Below are positions 41,408-63,809 of a DNA stretch of 64,000 bases, in pieces. Where the stretch lies: assembly GCA_017463155.1 (NCBI GenBank), contig JAFTPT010000042.1:62001-126000 (forward strand), read 5' to 3'. The translations under genes and the position numbers were made by a program. Positions within the stretch are counted from its first letter, which is position 1; each line of letters starts with the position of its first letter. The notes beneath the pieces were generated by a model, which saw nothing but the letters and a program-made list of their open reading frames with translations, did no database searches and was not told the origin of the DNA. The stretch is from Blautia sp. (lineage in GTDB: Bacteria; Bacillota; Clostridia; Lachnospirales; Lachnospiraceae).

Positions 41408-41605
41408 AAGGACGTCAAAAAAACGGACGCTCGGCCGGCGGGTAGGTGCCTCCCTGTGGGGCGTGGCGAAGAACCTCATCAAAAAGGAATTCCTGAAGCC
41501 CTATGACAGGAAGTTCCCCGGCAGGTCATGAACGAACGGATATTACAGAACAGTGAATTTGTTATGATAAGATAAAGTAACTATATCATGTACGGGAGGC
41601 GAAGT

Positions 41606-43237
41606 ATGGGGAAAAAAATCACGAATCTGCTGCTGTTCCTGCTGGTGACAGCGGCCCTCGTCTGCATGACGCTGTACATCGGACGGGGACAGACAAATGT
41701 TATGATCTATAACTTCTGTTTCATGGGAGTCATGGTCATCCTGTATCTTGCAGGCATGTTCGGAGGCATGTTCCGGATGGATGATCTTGCCGGCGCGCTG
41801 GGGAGAGCGGCGGAGGAGGTCACCTCGATCTTCAAGATTCCCGGCAAGGTCAAGGCCGACGATCTGAACGTGCTGGAGGGTGTTTTTGACAACCGGTACC
41901 TGGACAAGAAGCTCCGTGATTTCACGGATGATATCAGCAAGACCCAGGAAGGCATCGGGGATATCGAGGACTATATCAACGAAGACGAGCTGGACATTCA
42001 TGTCCACAAGCGCCTGATGGAGATGGTTCCGGATATCTTTACCAGCCTTGGTATCCTGGGTACCTTCGTGGGCCTGGTATGGGGCCTTAAGAACTTTTCT
42101 CCCAACGATTACGCGGCGATGACCAGCTCGGTCGCATCGCTCGTGGACGGCATCAAGGTGGCGTTCCTGACCTCCATCTACGGTATTGCCTTCTCGATCG
42201 TCTATTCCTACGGGGCCAAGAGCGAATACTCCGCCATGGCGGAAAAGCTGCAGATGTTCCTGAACCGTTTCCACAGCTACGTCATGCCGAACGCCGAGAA
42301 CGATTCACGGAACCTCCTGGTATCCAGCCAGAAGGTGCAGACGGACGCCATGAACAAGATGGCGGAGCAGTTTTCGGAGCAGATGGCGGACAGCTTTGAA
42401 AAGGTCATCACACCGACCTTTGTCAAGATGAACGACTCTCTGGACCTTCTCGCGTCTTCCGTCACACGGTGCCAGACCGACGCGATCCAGGAGATCGTGG
42501 ACGGCTTCATGAAGCAGATGCGGGATTCCTTCCAGCTGCAGTTCGACGACTTCAACGTCGCGCTGGACGAGATGACGAATTCCATGAAGCAGACCACCGA
42601 ATACAACGCAAAGCTGTACCAGTCCCTGAGCCGGCAGCTGTCCGACAGCTACCAGCAGCAGGACAAGGCGATGCGCGAATCCGTGACGCAGATCGGCAAT
42701 CTGCAGAACCGCTACATGCAGACCGCGACCAAGATCACCCAGGACAACCAGGCGATCCAGCGGGCGCAGCAGCAGGACTACGAGCATGTGATGCAGTACA
42801 TGAAGGAGGCGGAATCCTCCGCCGCCAAGTTCTGGGTCGCCTGCAACCAGACCATGAAGCGCTACGTGGAAGCTGCGACGGCGGGCATGGAAAGCGTCAG
42901 CACCACCAACCAGGCCGGCATGCAGGTCGTGGACACGAACAAACGGCTGGTGGCCGATTTTACGCAGAAGATGCAGGAGTTCGAGCGCTACCAGAAGCTC
43001 TCCTACGAGACCATGGACGAGGTGCGCCGCCTTCTTACGGATATCTCCGCCAACAGTACCGGCGATGTGTATCTCGGCAGCGGGCGCAACAGCAGTCTCG
43101 CCCAGCAGCAGACCCTCGACCGGATCGAGCAGCTGCTTGAGACCCAGAACGAGAGCCAGCAGGAGATGGCCAGGAACGTGCGTGATCTCAAAAAGGAATC
43201 CGCACAGAAAGGAAAATTCAATCTGTTTAAATCATAA
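41606..43237 (+). CDS. MotA/TolQ/ExbB-type proton channel protein, ZorA-like
   Basis: ATG 41606 (GGGAGG 6 nt upstream) is preferred over the in-frame ATG 41588, giving 543 aa. Two N-terminal membrane segments (about 5-25 and 33-55) are followed by a cytoplasmic region and two more helices, the first carrying the MotA/TolQ/ExbB-type segment FTSLGILGTFVGLVWG (145-160) and the second AFLTSIYGIAFSIVYSYG. From about 230 to the end the chain is polar and coiled-coil-like, rich in Gln/Met/Lys, as in the long tail of ZorA. With the next gene it should form an ion-driven stator in the membrane. The role is unknown; no Zorya effector gene is adjacent. Confidence 0.8.
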   Translation: MGKKITNLLLFLLVTAALVCMTLYIGRGQTNVMIYNFCFMGVMVILYLAGMFGGMFRMDDLAGALGRAAEEVTSIFKIPGKVKADDLNVLEGVFDNRYLDKKLRDFTDDISKTQEGIGDIEDYINEDELDIHVHKRLMEMVPDIFTSLGILGTFVGLVWGLKNFSPNDYAAMTSSVASLVDGIKVAFLTSIYGIAFSIVYSYGAKSEYSAMAEKLQMFLNRFHSYVMPNAENDSRNLLVSSQKVQTDAMNKMAEQFSEQMADSFEKVITPTFVKMNDSLDLLASSVTRCQTDAIQEIVDGFMKQMRDSFQLQFDDFNVALDEMTNSMKQTTEYNAKLYQSLSRQLSDSYQQQDKAMRESVTQIGNLQNRYMQTATKITQDNQAIQRAQQQDYEHVMQYMKEAESSAAKFWVACNQTMKRYVEAATAGMESVSTTNQAGMQVVDTNKRLVADFTQKMQEFERYQKLSYETMDEVRRLLTDISANSTGDVYLGSGRNSSLAQQQTLDRIEQLLETQNESQQEMARNVRDLKKESAQKGKFNLFKS

Positions 43238-43246
43238 GGAGAATAC

Positions 43247-44221
43247 ATGCGCAGAAAGAAAAAATCAGAGGAAAGCGGGTTCAGTATCTGGCGTTCCTAT
43301 TCCGATATGATGGCAGGCGTTCTGCTTCTTTTCGTTCTGATCATGTGTGTGACCCTGTTTCAGGCACAGAAGAATTATGATGACAGCATAAAAGAACGGG
43401 ATGAGAAGATCGCGCTGCAGGAGCAGTACACGGTCGAGCTTCTCGCCAAGCAGAACGCGCTGGATGAGAAGGAAGGCCAGCTGTACGCCCAGAACGAGCA
43501 GCTGAAGGACCAGGATGAACAGCTTGCGACCCAGGAAAAGCTGCTGGCCGAATACGCGGCCCAGCTGAAGGAACAGGAGGAGAAGCTTGCCGCCCAGGAA
43601 AAGACCCTGGGAGAACAGCAGGTCGCGCTGGATGAAAAAACGGCTCTTCTGGCCGACCAGCAGAAGAAGATCGACAAGATCATCGGCGTCAAGGCCGAGG
43701 TGGTCGAAAACCTCAAGAACGAGTTCGCAAAGAACAATGTGAACGTGGATATCGATTCCCAGACGGGCGCGCTGACGCTGGATGCCAACGTCATGTTCGA
43801 TTATGATGAGACCGAACTGACGGAGGAAGGCGAGGAGGCGCTCCGCAAGGTCCTTCCGATCTACTGCAAGGTGCTGCTGGAAAAAGAGACCCAGCCATAT
43901 CTTGCGGAGATCATCATCGTCGGTTACACGGACGATGACGGCGACTATACCTACAACCTGGAGCTTTCGCAGCAGAGAGCCTTCGCGGTTGCCCAGTACC
44001 TGCTGGATATCCAGTATGAATTCCTCGACGAGGACCAGCAGCTGGATCTGCAGGAGTACCTGACGGTCAACGGCCATTCCAAGGCGAACCTGGTGACGGA
44101 TGCCGAGGGCAATGTCGACAAAGATGCCTCCCGCCGTGTGGAGGTCAAATTCCGGCTGAAGGACGAAGAGATGATCGACGAGCTGAACACGATCATGTCC
44201 GACGTGGAAAAAACAGAATAA
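43247..44221 (+). CDS. MotB/OmpA-like stator protein, ZorB-like
   Basis: The 324-aa protein has one N-terminal membrane helix (about 21-39) preceded by SYSDMMAG, placing Asp20 at the helix entrance like the essential proton-carrying Asp of MotB/ZorB. Residues about 45-150 form a long coiled coil of repeated QLKEQEEKLAAQEK-type units. Residues about 165-315 are an OmpA-like peptidoglycan-binding domain (VMFDYDETELTEEGEEAL, IIVGYTDDDGDYTYN, LSQQRAFAVAQYLL, NVDKDASRRVEVKF). It starts 9 nt after the channel gene, so the two are co-translated. The map gene follows 20 nt later. Confidence 0.82.
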   Translation: MRRKKKSEESGFSIWRSYSDMMAGVLLLFVLIMCVTLFQAQKNYDDSIKERDEKIALQEQYTVELLAKQNALDEKEGQLYAQNEQLKDQDEQLATQEKLLAEYAAQLKEQEEKLAAQEKTLGEQQVALDEKTALLADQQKKIDKIIGVKAEVVENLKNEFAKNNVNVDIDSQTGALTLDANVMFDYDETELTEEGEEALRKVLPIYCKVLLEKETQPYLAEIIIVGYTDDDGDYTYNLELSQQRAFAVAQYLLDIQYEFLDEDQQLDLQEYLTVNGHSKANLVTDAEGNVDKDASRRVEVKFRLKDEEMIDELNTIMSDVEKTE

Positions 44222-57881: not shown

Positions 57882-58652
57882 ATGGCACATGTGATCGCCG
57901 TTGCCGGCAAAGGCGGCGTTGGAAAGACGACTCTTTGCGGAATGCTGATCCAGTATCTCTGCGAACAGGGGAAAGGTCCGGTCCTTGCGGTGGACGCGGA
58001 CGCCAATTCCAATCTGAACGAGGTCCTGGGAGTAAAGGTCGAGACAACACTGGGGGATGTGCGTGAGGAGATCGCACGCGCCGAGCTCTCTGCCGAGAAC
58101 CCGATCCCCGCGGGCGTTTCAAAGGCAGATTATGCGGAGATGCGCTTCGAGGATGCACTGACCGAGGATGATGATTTTGATCTTCTGGTTATGGGCAGGA
58201 CCCAGGGGAAGGGATGCTACTGTTACGTGAACGGACTGCTGCAGACGCAGCTGGCCAGGTACCAAAACAGTTATCCTTACTTCGTGGTCGACAACGAAGC
58301 CGGCATGGAGCATATCAGCAGGGGAGTCCTTCCGACCATGCAGACAGCCATTCTGGTGAGCGACTGCTCCAGACGCGGGATCCAGGCCGTCGGGCGTATC
58401 GCCCGCCTGATCGATGAATGCGAGATGCATCCCGATACGGTGGGACTGATCGTCAACCGTGCCCCAAAAGGGGAACTGAACCCCGGGATCCTGGAGGAGA
58501 TCGAACTTCAGGGCCTTCATCTGCTGGGCGTGCTACCGCAGGATGAAATGGTCTATGAGTTCGACTGCGAGGGGAGGCCGACGGTGGAACTGCCGGCGGA
58601 CAATCCCGTCAAGACGGCAATCAGGGGGATCGTGGACAAGCTGGGATTGTAA
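57882..58652 (+). CDS. cooC: CooC-type nickel-insertion ATPase
   Basis: CooC is a dimeric P-loop ATPase that matures the Ni-Fe-S C-cluster of CODH. The 256-aa protein has the deviant Walker A AGKGGVGKTT, DADANSN, and the Cys-x-Cys metal site at Cys112 and Cys114 (GKGCYCYVNG), the same spacing as in CooC of R. rubrum. VDNEAGMEHISRG is the Walker B/switch region. AGGAGG precedes the ATG, 30 nt after metF. A second CooC-like gene follows CODH; the pair may serve CODH and ACS separately. Confidence 0.92.
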   Translation: MAHVIAVAGKGGVGKTTLCGMLIQYLCEQGKGPVLAVDADANSNLNEVLGVKVETTLGDVREEIARAELSAENPIPAGVSKADYAEMRFEDALTEDDDFDLLVMGRTQGKGCYCYVNGLLQTQLARYQNSYPYFVVDNEAGMEHISRGVLPTMQTAILVSDCSRRGIQAVGRIARLIDECEMHPDTVGLIVNRAPKGELNPGILEEIELQGLHLLGVLPQDEMVYEFDCEGRPTVELPADNPVKTAIRGIVDKLGL

Positions 58653-58951
58653 AAAAGCTTGTTGTATACGAGACTTAATAAAGCCGGATCGCTCCGCACA
58701 GAGTGCTCCCGCGATCCTGAAACGATGATTCGGAATTCGTTACGCTCGCAAGGCTTCGCGTAACTGTATTCCTCATATCGCTTAGGTCGTCACGTGCACA
58801 ATCGTGACTGCCTGCAAGCAGGCGTTCCGATGTTCACGGACGACACTTTATTCATTATAATATCCCATGGGTGGGGATGGGTTCCTGTCGTGGGTATTTA
58901 TATGTAACCAAAAACAAGTACCTAAAGTACTTACATTTAAGGAGGTCTAAA
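58653..58951. promoter_or_regulatory. Hairpin-rich leader region of acsA with promoter
   Basis: The 299-nt gap holds four small hairpins: GGATCGC/GCGATCC (58685-58717), a nested GGAAT...GTTACGC/GCGTAAC...ATTCC unit (58732-58772), GTCACG/CGTGAC (58789-58808) and GCCTGC/GCAGGC (58810-58823). A promoter (TTCACG, 17 bp, TATAAT; 58833-58861) follows, then a leader with AAGTAC/GTACTT before AAGGAGGT. No coding frame is convincing. Confidence 0.6.
58833..58861 (+). promoter_or_regulatory. Promoter for acsA
   Basis: TTCACG (58833-58838), a 17-bp spacer and a perfect TATAAT (58856-58861). Confidence 0.6.
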
Positions 58952-60844
58952 ATGAGTGAATTCAAACTGACACCGATTGAGGATATGGAGGCCGCTACTC
59001 AAAGACTGCTTGAAACCGGCGCAAAGGTCGGAGCAGATTCCTGGCAGATGCGCGTGAAGAACCAGACTCCTCACTGTAAATTCGGCGAGCAGGGTATCTG
59101 CTGCCGGATCTGCGCCATGGGCCCGTGCCGTATCACCCCGAAGGCACCCCGCGGAATCTGTGGCTGCGATGCCCATGGTATCGTAGGCCGTAACTATCTT
59201 AAGTTTACTGCCGGCGGCGGTGCGACGCATTCCGATCATGGACGTGAGATCTGCAACACCCTGTATCATTCCGAGCCGGGCGGCGCATATCAGGTCAAAG
59301 ATCCCGAAAAGCTGAAAAAGCTGGCGAAGGAGTGGGGCGTTGAGACCGAAGGCAAGGATATCTATGATCTGGCTCATGAGATGGCTCTCCTTGGTCTGGA
59401 AGAGTATGGTAAGGTTTTCGGATACCAGAGATTCCTCGACAGAATGCCGGAAGGCCAGAAGGAAAAGCTGATCGAGCTGGAACTGGCACCCCGCGCCATC
59501 GACCGTGAGGTTTCCGCTTCCCTGCATACCACACATATGGGATGTTCCTCCCTTCCGGAGCAGCTGGTCCGCCAGTCCATCCGTATGGGTATGGCAGACG
59601 GCTGGGGCGGTTCCATGGCAGGTACCGAATTCTCAGATGTTATGTTTGGAACCCCGAAACCCGTTGATACCGAAGCAAACCTTGGCGTCATGGTCGCCGA
59701 GAACGTAAATATCATCGTACATGGACATGATCCGAGCCTTTCCGAGAAGGTCTGCGACTGGGCAGAGGATCCCGAAATGCTTGCTCTGGCCAAGTCTGTC
59801 GGCGCCAAGGGCATCACCGTATCCGGTGTCTGCTGTACCTCCAACGAGGTCGCGATGCGCCGCGGTATCCCGATGGCCGGCAACTTCCTGTCCCAGGAGA
59901 ACGTCGTTCTGACCGGTGCCTGCGAAGCCATCGTCGTCGACGTGCAGTGTATCTTCCCGGCTCTTGGACCGCTTTCCAAGTGCTTCCACACCAAGTTCAT
60001 CACCACCTCCCCGATCGCGAGAATGCCAGATTCCGAGTTCATCCGCTTTGACGCCGGTACGGCCAACGAGAAGGCAAAACAGATCGTCGAGATGGCTGTC
60101 ATGAACTTCAAGAACAGAAAGCCCGAGCTGGTTCACATTCCGCAGCTGAAGCAGAAAGCAACCGTCGGCTACTCCGTTGAAGCCATCGTCAAGACCCTTG
60201 ACGGCGTTACCAACAGCCAGGTCGACGAGACCGGAACCACCAAGCCGCTCCTCGAGTGCATCACCTCCGGTGTTATCCGTGGTGCTGTCGCCATGGTCGG
60301 CTGCAACAACCCGAAGGTCCGCCCGGACTACGCACACATCGAACTGATGAAGAAGCTGATCGCCAACGACATCATCGTCATCTCCTCCGGCTGCGCTTCC
60401 CAGGCAGCTGCCAAGGCAGGCCTGATGGACAAGAGAGCCAAGGATCTGTGCGGCGCCGGCCTCAAGAGAGTCTGCGAGCTGGCTGACATCCCGCCTGTCC
60501 TGCACATGGGCTCCTGCGTGGATATCTCCCGTATGATGGTCCTGGCCGCTACGCTTGCCAAGGATTCCGGCCTGCAGATCAATCAGCTTCCGGTCGTCGG
60601 ATGTGCTCCCGAGTGGATGTCCGAGAAGGCTGTCTCCATCGGTAACTATGTCGTAGGTACCGGACTTGACACCTTCCTTGGCGTTGATCCTTATGTGGAG
60701 GGCTCCAGCGAGATGCAGTGGTGGCTGACCGAGGGCGTACGTCAGTGGACCGGTTCTGCTTACACTGTCGAGAAGGATATCGAGAAGCTGACCGATCTCA
60801 TGATCGAGCGGATCGAGGAAAAGAGAGCAGCTCTCGGCATCTAA
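58952..60844 (+). CDS. acsA: Carbon monoxide dehydrogenase catalytic subunit
   Basis: This Ni-Fe-S enzyme interconverts CO and CO2 and feeds CO to acetyl-CoA synthase. ATG 58952 follows AAGGAGGT and gives 630 aa, normal for CooS/AcsA. The N-terminal cysteines for the D- and B-clusters are in CKFGEQGICCRICAMGPCRI and GICGCDAHG. HTTHMGCSSLPEQL carries conserved His and Cys residues; GCASQAAAKAGLM and GSCVDISRM hold C-cluster ligands. The codon bias is very high-expression-like. The adjacent CooC genes and acsB identify it as the CODH of a CODH/ACS complex rather than a stand-alone CooS. Confidence 0.96.
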   Translation: MSEFKLTPIEDMEAATQRLLETGAKVGADSWQMRVKNQTPHCKFGEQGICCRICAMGPCRITPKAPRGICGCDAHGIVGRNYLKFTAGGGATHSDHGREICNTLYHSEPGGAYQVKDPEKLKKLAKEWGVETEGKDIYDLAHEMALLGLEEYGKVFGYQRFLDRMPEGQKEKLIELELAPRAIDREVSASLHTTHMGCSSLPEQLVRQSIRMGMADGWGGSMAGTEFSDVMFGTPKPVDTEANLGVMVAENVNIIVHGHDPSLSEKVCDWAEDPEMLALAKSVGAKGITVSGVCCTSNEVAMRRGIPMAGNFLSQENVVLTGACEAIVVDVQCIFPALGPLSKCFHTKFITTSPIARMPDSEFIRFDAGTANEKAKQIVEMAVMNFKNRKPELVHIPQLKQKATVGYSVEAIVKTLDGVTNSQVDETGTTKPLLECITSGVIRGAVAMVGCNNPKVRPDYAHIELMKKLIANDIIVISSGCASQAAAKAGLMDKRAKDLCGAGLKRVCELADIPPVLHMGSCVDISRMMVLAATLAKDSGLQINQLPVVGCAPEWMSEKAVSIGNYVVGTGLDTFLGVDPYVEGSSEMQWWLTEGVRQWTGSAYTVEKDIEKLTDLMIERIEEKRAALGI

Positions 60845-60886
60845 AGAGAACTATATCTGTATAATCAAAAGTAAGGTGGATAAGAC

Positions 60887-61663
60887 ATGAAGATAGCGAT
60901 TACCGGCAAGGGCGGCGTCGGAAAGACGACCTTTGCCGCGACACTGGCCCGGCTCTATGCCGACGAAGGACATCACGTCCTGGCGGCTGACGTGGATCCG
61001 GACGCGAATCTGGGCCTGGCCCTTGGATTCACGGAGGAGGAGCTGGACAAGATCGTACCCATCAGCAAGATGCGTCAGCTGATCGAGGAGCGTACGGGCG
61101 CAGGTCCCGGAAACCAGTTTTACAAGCTGAACCCCAAGGTGGATGACATTCCGGATGCTTACGGGCAGGTGAAGAACGGCGTCAAGCTGCTTCTTCTCGG
61201 CACCGTGGAGACCGGAGGCGCCGGCTGTGTCTGCCCGGAGCACGTGATGCTCCGCCGGCTGATCAGCAACCTGGTGCTGCACCGGGGGGATGTGGTGATC
61301 CTCGACATGGAGGCGGGACTTGAACATCTGGGACGCGGCACGACGGAGGGCATGGATCAGTTCATCGTCGTGATCGAACCGGGGGCCAGAAGCGTGCAGA
61401 CGTACAAGAACGTAAAGCGGCTCGCATCCGACCTGGGCGTACGGCAGGTTCACGTAGTCGCGAACAAGGTCCGGGATGAGAAGGATGAAGAATTTGTCCG
61501 GTCACATATCCCGGCCGAAGATCTTCTCGGTTTTATTCACTATAACACGGAGATCATGGACGCGGACCGGCAGGGTCAGTCACCCTACGACTACAGCCGG
61601 ACCGCCGTCGAGGAGATCCGTAAGATTAAGCAGACCATCGACCAGATCGATGAGAGAAATTGA
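60887..61663 (+). CDS. acsF: CooC/AcsF-type nickel-insertion ATPase (second copy)
   Basis: The 258-aa P-loop ATPase has Walker A TGKGGVGKTT, DVDPDANLG and a Cys-x-Cys metal site at Cys114 and Cys116 (GAGCVCPEH). LDMEAGLEHLGRG is the Walker B/switch region. In Moorella, AcsF of this family is encoded in the acs cluster and activates acetyl-CoA synthase, so this copy between CODH and acsB is named acsF on context. It differs clearly from the first CooC gene (57882). The start lies 42 nt after acsA. Confidence 0.88.
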   Translation: MKIAITGKGGVGKTTFAATLARLYADEGHHVLAADVDPDANLGLALGFTEEELDKIVPISKMRQLIEERTGAGPGNQFYKLNPKVDDIPDAYGQVKNGVKLLLLGTVETGGAGCVCPEHVMLRRLISNLVLHRGDVVILDMEAGLEHLGRGTTEGMDQFIVVIEPGARSVQTYKNVKRLASDLGVRQVHVVANKVRDEKDEEFVRSHIPAEDLLGFIHYNTEIMDADRQGQSPYDYSRTAVEEIRKIKQTIDQIDERN

Positions 61664-61679
61664 ATAGGAGGACAAAGCA

Positions 61680-63809
61680 TTGACACTTTTTGAGAGAGTA
61701 TTTAATGGTAACGACGCTGTATATGGACTTACCGAGCAGGCCATCGACGGTGCGATCGCACAGTACGGCGAAGAGAAGGCTGTCAGCTTTCCGGATACCG
61801 CGTACTGCCTTCCCTGCTACTATGCAGTAACGGGCGTAAAGGTAACGACTCTGAAGGAACTGAAAGAGGCCCTTGGCGTTGTCAAGACTCTGATGACCAG
61901 GAACAACCGCCTGAACGACGCGTTCATGTCCGGTGTCGCCACCGCTCTTTGCGCCGAGTTTATCGAGGCCCTGAAGTACATCGACGGACAGACTCCGTAT
62001 GAGATGCCGCTGTACGGCCATCTTGCCGACGCTGTCATCCGTAACCTCGGTGTTCCGCTTGTTACCGGCGATATCCCCGGCGTTGCCGTTATCCTCGGCG
62101 CCGCACCGACCGTTGAGGAAGGTGTTGCTCTTGTTAAATCCTATCAGGCACAGGGTATCCTGGTCACACTGGTAGGCGGTATCTGCGATCAGGTCGCAGA
62201 GGGCGGCATGACCACCGGTGACGCAGTCCGCGTGATCCCGCTGGGCAAGGATGTTACCTCTGTTATCCATGTTGTTTCTGTTGCAGTCCGTGCAGCCCTG
62301 ATCTTCGGTAATGTAAAGCCCGGCGATGCGGCAGCACTGATGGAGTACACCTTCAAGCGTGTACCGGCCTTCGTAAACGCATTTGCACCGCTTGACGATG
62401 TGATCGTGGCATGTGGCGCAGGCGCGATCGCCCTTGGCTTCCCGGTCATCACCAACGAGACCGAGAACATCTTCCGCGTACCGAAGAGCCTGATCGTACA
62501 GGAAGACGTCAGCAAGTTCAACGCTACCTCTCTTGAGGCCCGCGACATCAAGATCAAGATCACCAACGTTGACATTCCGGTCGCATTCGCATCCGCATTC
62601 GAAGGTGAGATCATCCGTCGTAAAGAGATGCAGGTCGAGTTCGACGGCTCCCGTGTGGACTGTGCAGAGCTTGTGCATACCGTGGAAGCTTCCGAGATCG
62701 AAGACCACAAGATCACCGTGGTCGGACCGGAAGTCGATGAGATGGAGCTTGGCTCCAAGAATTCCATCGCTTACGTCGTCAAGGTCGCCGGCAAGAACAT
62801 GCAGCCCGACTTTGAGCCCGTTATCGAGCGTAAGTTCCATAACTACATTAACTGTATCGAGGGTGTGTACCATACCGGTCAGAGAGATATGCAGCGTATC
62901 CGTATCTCCATCAACGCCTTCAACGCAGGCTTCCGTATCAAACACATCGGCGAAGTCCTGTACACGCAGGTCAAGAACGAATTCGACGCCGTTGTTGACA
63001 AGTGCGAAGTTGTGATCTACACCGATCCGGCCGAGTGCACCAGGATCCGTCATGAGGTTGCTATCCCGATCTTCAACAAGCGTGATGACCGTCTTGCGAA
63101 CCTGACTGACGAGTCCGTTGACGTATACTACAGCTGCATCCTTTGCCAGGCATTCTCCCCGAGCCACGTATGCGTGGTCACTCCGGAAAGACTTGGCCTC
63201 TGCGGTGCCGTTTCATGGCTTGACGCCAAGGCGACCAACGAGCTGGATCCCACCGGTCCGTGCCAGGTGATCACCAAAGAGCGTCCGATCGACGAAGAGC
63301 TCGGCTCCTACGAGGATGTTGATGAAGCCGTCAACAAATTCTCCCAGGGTGCTCTTGAGCATGTTACCCTGTACTCCATCATGCAGGATCCGATGACCTC
63401 CTGCGGATGCTTCGAGTGTATCTGCGGTATCGAGCCGTTCTCCAACGGTGTTGTTATCGCGAACCGTGAATATGCAGGCATGACTCCTCTTGGAATGACC
63501 TTCCCGGAGATGGCTTCCATGACCGGCGGCGGTGTGCAGACTCCCGGCTTCATGGGCCATGGCAAACACTTCATCGCTTCCAAGAAGTTCATGAAGGCTG
63601 AGGGCGGTATCGAGCGTATCGTCTGGATGCCGAAGGAACTGAAAGAGTTCATCGCAGACCGTCTCAACAAGTCCGCACAGGAACTGTACGGAATCGAGAA
63701 CTTCAGCGACATGATCGGTGACGAGACCATCGCGACCGATCCCGAAGAGCTGGTCGCATTCCTTACCGAAAAAGGACATCCGGCACTCGGCCTGGATCCC
63801 ATGATGTAA
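61680..63809 (+). CDS. acsB: CO-methylating acetyl-CoA synthase (alpha subunit)
   Basis: AcsB joins CO, a methyl group from the corrinoid protein and CoA into acetyl-CoA. The start is TTG 61680 with AGGAGG well spaced upstream and no better ATG. The 709-aa protein has the A-cluster ligands: Cys486, Cys489, Cys498 and Cys508 for the Fe4S4 cube (YYSCILCQAFSPSHVC then LGLCGA) and the Cys575-Gly-Cys577 nickel site (SCGCFEC). The spacing matches the Moorella enzyme. Codon use is biased to highly expressed genes. The corrinoid protein (acsC/acsD) and methyltransferase (acsE) genes are expected to the right. Confidence 0.96.
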   Translation: MTLFERVFNGNDAVYGLTEQAIDGAIAQYGEEKAVSFPDTAYCLPCYYAVTGVKVTTLKELKEALGVVKTLMTRNNRLNDAFMSGVATALCAEFIEALKYIDGQTPYEMPLYGHLADAVIRNLGVPLVTGDIPGVAVILGAAPTVEEGVALVKSYQAQGILVTLVGGICDQVAEGGMTTGDAVRVIPLGKDVTSVIHVVSVAVRAALIFGNVKPGDAAALMEYTFKRVPAFVNAFAPLDDVIVACGAGAIALGFPVITNETENIFRVPKSLIVQEDVSKFNATSLEARDIKIKITNVDIPVAFASAFEGEIIRRKEMQVEFDGSRVDCAELVHTVEASEIEDHKITVVGPEVDEMELGSKNSIAYVVKVAGKNMQPDFEPVIERKFHNYINCIEGVYHTGQRDMQRIRISINAFNAGFRIKHIGEVLYTQVKNEFDAVVDKCEVVIYTDPAECTRIRHEVAIPIFNKRDDRLANLTDESVDVYYSCILCQAFSPSHVCVVTPERLGLCGAVSWLDAKATNELDPTGPCQVITKERPIDEELGSYEDVDEAVNKFSQGALEHVTLYSIMQDPMTSCGCFECICGIEPFSNGVVIANREYAGMTPLGMTFPEMASMTGGGVQTPGFMGHGKHFIASKKFMKAEGGIERIVWMPKELKEFIADRLNKSAQELYGIENFSDMIGDETIATDPEELVAFLTEKGHPALGLDPMM

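Follow-up and report, generated by a model that had tools for sequence, protein, structure and literature searches.

In the literature consulted, ZorAB motors have so far been described from phage defence only. Zorya type I motors (PDB 8QYD with its related entries, and 8VVN of Shewanella ANA-3) combine a membrane Asp and Ser/Thr channel residues with an OmpA-type domain and a long cytoplasmic tail, and H186 of ZorB I is required for wall binding and defence (PMC11890865). The same combination is found in two adjacent genes, here zA and zB, on a 126-kb contig of a Blautia (Lachnospiraceae) assembly of 3.07 Mb; the window is the stretch of 64,000 nucleotides of this contig that was analysed (GCA_017463155.1, JAFTPT010000042.1, positions 62,001 to 126,000). 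The pair is almost certainly a ZorAB motor without effectors. Judged by sequence comparison, it is vertically inherited within the genus, and we lean towards reading it as a vertically inherited, stand-alone rotary motor of the ZorAB type and not as a Zorya defence system.

The original prediction, made from the DNA alone, had described the pair as ZorAB-like rather than as MotAB or ExbBD/TolQR, and the profile searches agree, as they place ZorA and ZorB first and the membrane Asp is present. PADLOC assigned zA to ZorA1 (5.5e-23) and zB to ZorB1 (8.7e-66), and the ZorA and ZorB models of NCBIfam also ranked first for the pair; their curated cut-offs were missed both by zA (ZorA_2, 74.8 versus 100 bits; ZorA_3, 54.3 versus 250; ZorA1, 46.1 versus 750) and by zB (ZorB1, 87.9 versus 400; ZorB2, 41.7 versus 400). 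The top profile and fold matches of zA were ZorA of Zorya type I, and the top profile match of zB was ZorB. In zA, hydrophobic stretches at residues 1-28, 30-58, 140-162 and 182-201 are followed by the long tail, and the MotA_ExbB family (PF01618) is matched at 7.3e-8 (32.7 bits, cut-off 22.9), the sole match to the MotA/ExbB family in its own genome at E<=0.001. The channel residues T153, T189 and S190 are invariant in 40/40 aligned rows.

The second protein had been predicted to carry an Asp in the entrance helix, followed by a long coiled coil and by an OmpA-like domain, all of which were recovered: D20 is kept in 34/34 aligned relatives (a looser motif search found the membrane Asp in 109/109 zB relatives, a set that overlaps the aligned one), in the predicted model of zB a single helix spans residues 14-162 and is followed by the OmpA-type domain, and Pfam reports OmpA (PF00691) at 3e-13, with MotB_plug (0.025) below the Pfam cut-off. 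D229, R244, R296 and R297 are likewise kept in 34/34 relatives, and wall binding by the OmpA-type domain is likely on the basis of the model. According to the predicted model, the part of the helix that lies beyond the membrane would comprise about 120 residues and extend for some 18 nm. The inner wall zone of Gram-positive bacteria has about the same depth.

The long spacer is one of two traits that mark effector-less pairs (orphans) of this kind. In zB of the window, 136 residues lie between D20 and L156, which immediately precedes the wall domain. The same interval spans 115-185 residues (median 144.5) in 26 orphan rows and is roughly three times as long there as in the 9 Zorya I rows (41-62, median 45); the 5 short-tailed rows have 111-125 residues, and the 10 flagellar rows 74-136, with a median of 91. 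The other trait is a basic-aromatic tip of the zA tail, which is present in 78/79 relatives and 31/31 loci of the genus (overlapping sets) and absent from all Zorya I (0/9), short-tailed (0/5), SpaA-type (0/7), other (0/7), Drm-associated (0/1) and VWA-associated (0/1) rows, although the pattern was defined after inspection of the tail ends and then counted, in rows that are related to one another. The rows closest to Blautia also retain another motif of the tail, around W410-Y420. No claim is made for a calcium site, as E86/E89 named in the title of PDB 8QYH align with D105/D108 of the window and are acidic in just 17/40 and 13/40 relatives, and a sliding-clamp-binding reading of the tail tip was considered and dropped.

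Matches to the pair were obtained in 35/37 genomes of the genus, one of which (G022) matched only through a distant paralogue, so that orthologues are present in 34/37, those of G006 and G026 being partial; the pair is therefore not the product of chance open reading frames (ORFs). Among the 31 orthologous loci that were fetched out of the 34, the zA frame is open throughout (540-557 amino acids), the motor residues of both subunits are invariant, and one or more flank markers of the galM-brkB...map/rplS locus are present in 30, with none in L051. The pairwise distances of zA track those of its flanks, with r 0.86 over 16 loci for downstream genes and r 0.78 over 20 loci for upstream genes, as do those of zB (r 0.77 and 0.64, respectively); in each case 0/2000 permutations reached as high a correlation, and housekeeping controls gave r 0.64-0.91. 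The mean distances of the pair, 0.40 and 0.39, compare with 0.36 and 0.37 for the flanking lepB and brkB. In G022, a search did not find rplS. A single zB query, which reaches near relatives only, gave no tblastn match at 1e-10 to plasmid records and one match to phage records (51% covered, 9e-7), and none of 45 pattern matches on viral contigs was confirmed.

It had also been claimed that zorC, zorD and zorE are missing beside the pair, and indeed the flanking genes belong to other families. A single ZorC model matched 0/19 genomes of the genus (the own genome and 18 others) and 5/6 Zorya-bearing controls; a single ZorD model gave no match in the own genome and matched 6/6 of these controls. 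Little weight can be placed on the ZorD profile, since it detects generic helicases and also matched 10/14 named control genomes; its matches in 12/18 other genomes of the genus mostly cover the helicase part only. The one ZorE model used (PDLC00643) gave no match in the own genome and matched its Escherichia coli control. As regards Zorya III, the direct neighbours that could be identified belong to other families, ZorF and ZorG profiles not having been searched. A PF15611 search was uninformative, as its controls gave no match. A scan of a genome collection confirmed at least 541 relatives, of which the best 80 were kept for comparison; zB follows zA in 78/80, the other two stopping at contig ends (ORF calling lost some genes to overlapping frames, e.g., in L096 and L097, which were recovered by profile). 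ZorC and ZorD of the clostridial Zorya I locus L061 matched none of the ORFs called in these 80 loci, whose unlabelled neighbours were not clustered, and the ZorC query itself missed 3/8 Zorya-like loci, so that absence of a match by it means little. A hidden effector between brkB and zA was considered, as about 4.5 kb separate the two in many relatives of the genus, but in the four loci opened (L022, L028, L038 and L048) this interval reads as pheS, pheT and phosphoglycerate mutase. The idea of a conserved third gene downstream was rejected as well, because this position is occupied by ZIP-, MATE- or ThiT-like genes, by map or rplS or, in one subclade, by a small membrane coiled-coil gene. 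No third gene common to all clades was seen, unlabelled neighbours being compared by size and reading only; same-sized neighbours recur inside clades (e.g., L104-L106) and not visibly between them.

Outside Blautia, the neighbourhoods of Lachnospiraceae pairs differ clade by clade. At the phylum level, the zB profile matched 16/398 genomes, the own one included, and in the 14 other loci that were fetched (all except that of G533) a ZorD match lies beside the pair in 8 and a ZorC match in 5 of those 8. Together with L061 (ZorC 7.5e-17, ZorD 2.4e-299), these 8 form the effector-bearing controls (L061, L174-L177, L179, L180, L184 and L205), and by sequence the orphan pairs group beside these effector-bearing clostridial Zorya I. 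In the zB tree, 23 orphans and L053 form one group (100/100) within a Lachnospiraceae group of 33 rows (99/96; 82/77 in a reduced tree). In the full zB tree, the effector-bearing ZorB branch off one after another, as a ladder, beneath the Lachnospiraceae group (approximately unbiased (AU) test of a single Zorya I clade, p 0.049), and after leaving out six rows (L179, L184 and L205 of Zorya I; L182, L183 and L185) the ladder loses its support (AU p 0.44). In the zA tree, whose root rests on very long branches, Zorya I is a group of its own (96/98), the orphan label requires 4 changes, the main orphan rows fall in an unresolved fork without resolving into one clade, and the stand-alone rows L199-L201 group with the short-tailed set. 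An origin of the orphans from Zorya I, as hinted by the full zB tree, thus lacks support in the reduced tree.

How such a motor might work can be sketched from its likeness to ZorAB. Five zA would surround two zB, which would hold the wall via the OmpA domain at the end of the long helical spacer, and the passage of ions by D20 would drive rotation of the zA ring, long tail included, relative to zB held in the wall. Because no known effector is linked to the pair, the output of the motor would have to reach something encoded elsewhere, leading to the proposal that it may report or answer wall tension or membrane damage. The basic-aromatic tip of the rotating tail could dock on a partner encoded elsewhere, on the membrane or on nucleic acid. 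The motor probably senses or maintains the envelope through an unlinked partner.

The original prediction had left the choice between a stand-alone motor and a defence module with a remote effector. The former is favoured, since the pair is inherited vertically in the genus and the own genome gave no match to the profiles of ZorC, ZorD or ZorE, while for a remote effector no positive evidence was obtained. Vertical inheritance also favours an envelope task, and on balance we consider a role in the envelope somewhat more plausible than one in defence. Several observations weigh against this interpretation. The ZorAB motors characterised in the literature consulted serve defence; at 92% completeness of the own genome, an effector may have escaped assembly; G007 and G036 have the pair neither at the rplS locus nor elsewhere, hence it is dispensable; and outside Blautia the distribution is patchy and resembles that of accessory genes (12/200 one-per-genus genomes of the family at E<=1e-20, own included, in several subgroups). 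The position of ZorB I H186 is taken by Y227 in zB, with Tyr in 34/34 zB relatives and His in 7/9 Zorya I rows. The basal branch of the Lachnospiraceae zB group is L187, a locus with ZorAB, a weak ZorC, a helicase, DrmA and DrmB, and given its position in the tree the orphan lineage may descend from a defence motor.

Some of these observations would suit a defence module with an unlinked effector, in which the motor, as proposed for ZorAB, senses a phage-induced disturbance of the envelope and the tail activates a chromosomal nuclease or helicase of the host. The closest characterised relatives of the pair are defence motors, the long tail, the membrane Asp and most of the wall-binding residues named for Zorya (PMC11890865) are retained, a defence-like relative branches nearby, the distribution at family level is patchy, and the ZorD profile has generic helicase matches in 12 of the 18 other genomes of the genus tested. 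We nevertheless regard it as rather unlikely, since the pair occupies one locus in most of the genus and is inherited vertically there, did not turn up, within the sensitivity of the searches, among plasmids or viral contigs, and comes with neither an effector profile match in the own genome nor a match to ZorC or ZorD of L061 among the neighbours, unlabelled ones unclustered, in 80 relatives. That the pair is a decayed remnant of Zorya type I, drifting after the loss of zorC and zorD, could be argued from the ladder in the full zB tree, but this support disappears without the six rows, and the 31 open zA frames, the invariant motor residues of both subunits and a divergence little above that of lepB and brkB make this very improbable. 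A wall-linked force motor that moves a load rather than senses (gliding, secretion or polymer positioning) has precedents, as gliding and type 9 secretion are powered elsewhere by 5:2 motors according to PMC11890865, and a separate motor-like pair of Blautia with SpaA domains adjoins a Wzz/BcsQ-like gene; the neighbours read, many of them unidentified, included no recognisable gene for a rotor, a track or secretion, no search having been aimed at rotor genes, and we hold this reading to be improbable.

At the locus itself, the two predicted ORFs were found as described, 9 nucleotides apart, with an alternative zA start (ATG at 41588) six codons further 5' (Table 1). The neighbours named in the original prediction hold too, as a BrkB gene (PF03631, 2.8e-53) lies directly upstream of zA, and zB is followed by map, an M24 aminopeptidase with a SEC-C motif. 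Ribosomal protein L19 is also encoded downstream. The wider flanks, with an HD-domain (dgt-like) protein, phosphoenolpyruvate carboxykinase and aldose epimerase before BrkB, and signal peptidase and a GTPase after L19, are of the housekeeping type, which fits the core locus in a Lachnospiraceae host that had been proposed. A promoter and terminator scan of the locus gave nothing clearly exceeding chance. Further along the window (57882-63809), genes read like CooC-type ATPases and subunits of CO dehydrogenase and acetyl-CoA synthase, which presumably fits an acetogen.

Table 1. Features of the zA-zB pair in the window.
Feature	Position	Strand	Basis
zA, ZorA-like channel/rotor subunit (543 amino acids)	41606..43237	+	ORF, PF01618, PADLOC profiles
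MotA/TolQ/ExbB core of zA (residues 111-201)	41936..42208	+	PF01618; alignment
Cytoplasmic tail of zA (about residues 226-543)	42281..43234	+	Predicted model, almost wholly helix, low to medium confidence
Basic-aromatic tip of zA (last nine residues)	43208..43234	+	Comparison of tail ends
zB, ZorB-like subunit (324 amino acids)	43247..44221	+	ORF, Pfam and PADLOC profiles, predicted model
Codon of membrane-entry Asp D20 of zB	43304..43306	+	Alignment
Coiled-coil spacer of zB (residues 45-145)	43379..43681	+	Within single predicted helix 14-162
OmpA-type domain of zB (residues 183-293), including D229 and R244; R296 and R297 just past its end	43793..44125	+	PF00691, model, alignment

Related loci show further arrangements of such motors. 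In L187 (7071-18327, genome G875), a ZorA-ZorB pair is followed by a weak ZorC match (2.9e-4), a UvrD/GajB-like helicase, DrmA (2.2e-225) and DrmB (1.9e-81), an arrangement that by sequence suggests a DISARM core combined with a Zorya motor. The ZorAB-like pair of L053 (2563-14779, G029) seems to share an operon with genes for a VWA protein and for an ATPase resembling HerA/FtsK (DUF87, 8.7e-11), and this set is a candidate for a system of defence or of the envelope. L054 (3450-8190) contains a second MotA-like gene, whose B subunit has the membrane Asp and, in place of OmpA, SpaA prealbumin-like repeats (1.5e-23, L054 tested); similar A subunits occur in L055-L060, and the adjacent Wzz/BcsQ-like gene possibly ties the L054 pair to capsule or exopolysaccharide. 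The Lachnospiraceae pairs of L188, L189, L190, L203 and L204, with a shorter A subunit (368-410 amino acids), a coiled-coil ZorB and no recognised effectors, are apparently a second stand-alone lineage; G788 and G818 additionally have a flagellar-sized MotA. L206 (4125-9335) encodes an A subunit of 531 amino acids and, next to it, a B-like subunit of 1737 amino acids, in which residues 1593-1670, close to the C-terminus, match OmpA below threshold. As for the genes after zB, the one in L104 (9905-11386; L104 tested) begins 29 nucleotides further on and encodes a protein of secreted type that has choline-binding repeats and a CAP domain; beyond it, near L104, come genes that read as topoisomerase subunits. 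L105 and L106 have similar-sized ORFs at the same place. Genes near L198 read as an ATP synthase operon. In one Blautia subclade (L031, 11325-12164, and also L032, L035 and L071), a small membrane coiled-coil protein without a Pfam match directly follows zB and is a possible clade-specific third partner.

Searches of mainly open literature, with only the top-ranked results for broad queries, found no work on orphan or Lachnospiraceae ZorAB; ZorAB is omitted from the phylogeny in the accessible part of PMC12505986, and such pairs go unmentioned in the accessible parts of PMC12204202 and of the preprint PMC13192584. Tentatively, and with slightly more doubt than confidence, it can be suggested that ZorAB are not defence parts by nature and form a family of wall-anchored, ion-driven mechanotransducers in the envelope physiology of Lachnospiraceae, with a long spacer across the wall gap and a docking code at the tail tip, Zorya defence and the housekeeping form being two uses of one motor. 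A core ZorAB without known effectors in a gut genus would allow motor sensing to be studied free of toxic effectors and would tie defence to ordinary cell-wall physiology. In annotation, zorA and zorB profiles alone may overcall Zorya in Lachnospiraceae.

Compared with the known systems, the pair is thus nearest to Zorya type I, from which it differs by the lack of a ZorC or ZorD match, the long zB spacer, Tyr for His at 227, the basic-aromatic zA tip and its place in a vertically inherited core locus of the genus. The clostridial Zorya I loci share with the orphans PDLC00609 as the best ZorB model (in the four loci tested, L061, L174, L175 and L180, and in the orphans tested), whereas they have a ZorD match beside the pair in 9/9 and a ZorC match in 6/9, and their ZorB is short (226-248 versus 324 amino acids in the window). 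Flagellar MotAB belongs to the same stator superfamily and likewise has the Asp and an OmpA-type domain, but the PF01618 score of zA is about 33 bits, whereas the best MotA/ExbB proteins in 20 relatives reach 99.6-121.7, and zA, with 543 amino acids, is too long for MotA. ExbBD/TolQR shares the channel core, yet its B subunit is short and without an OmpA domain, whereas zB of the window has 324 amino acids and carries this domain.
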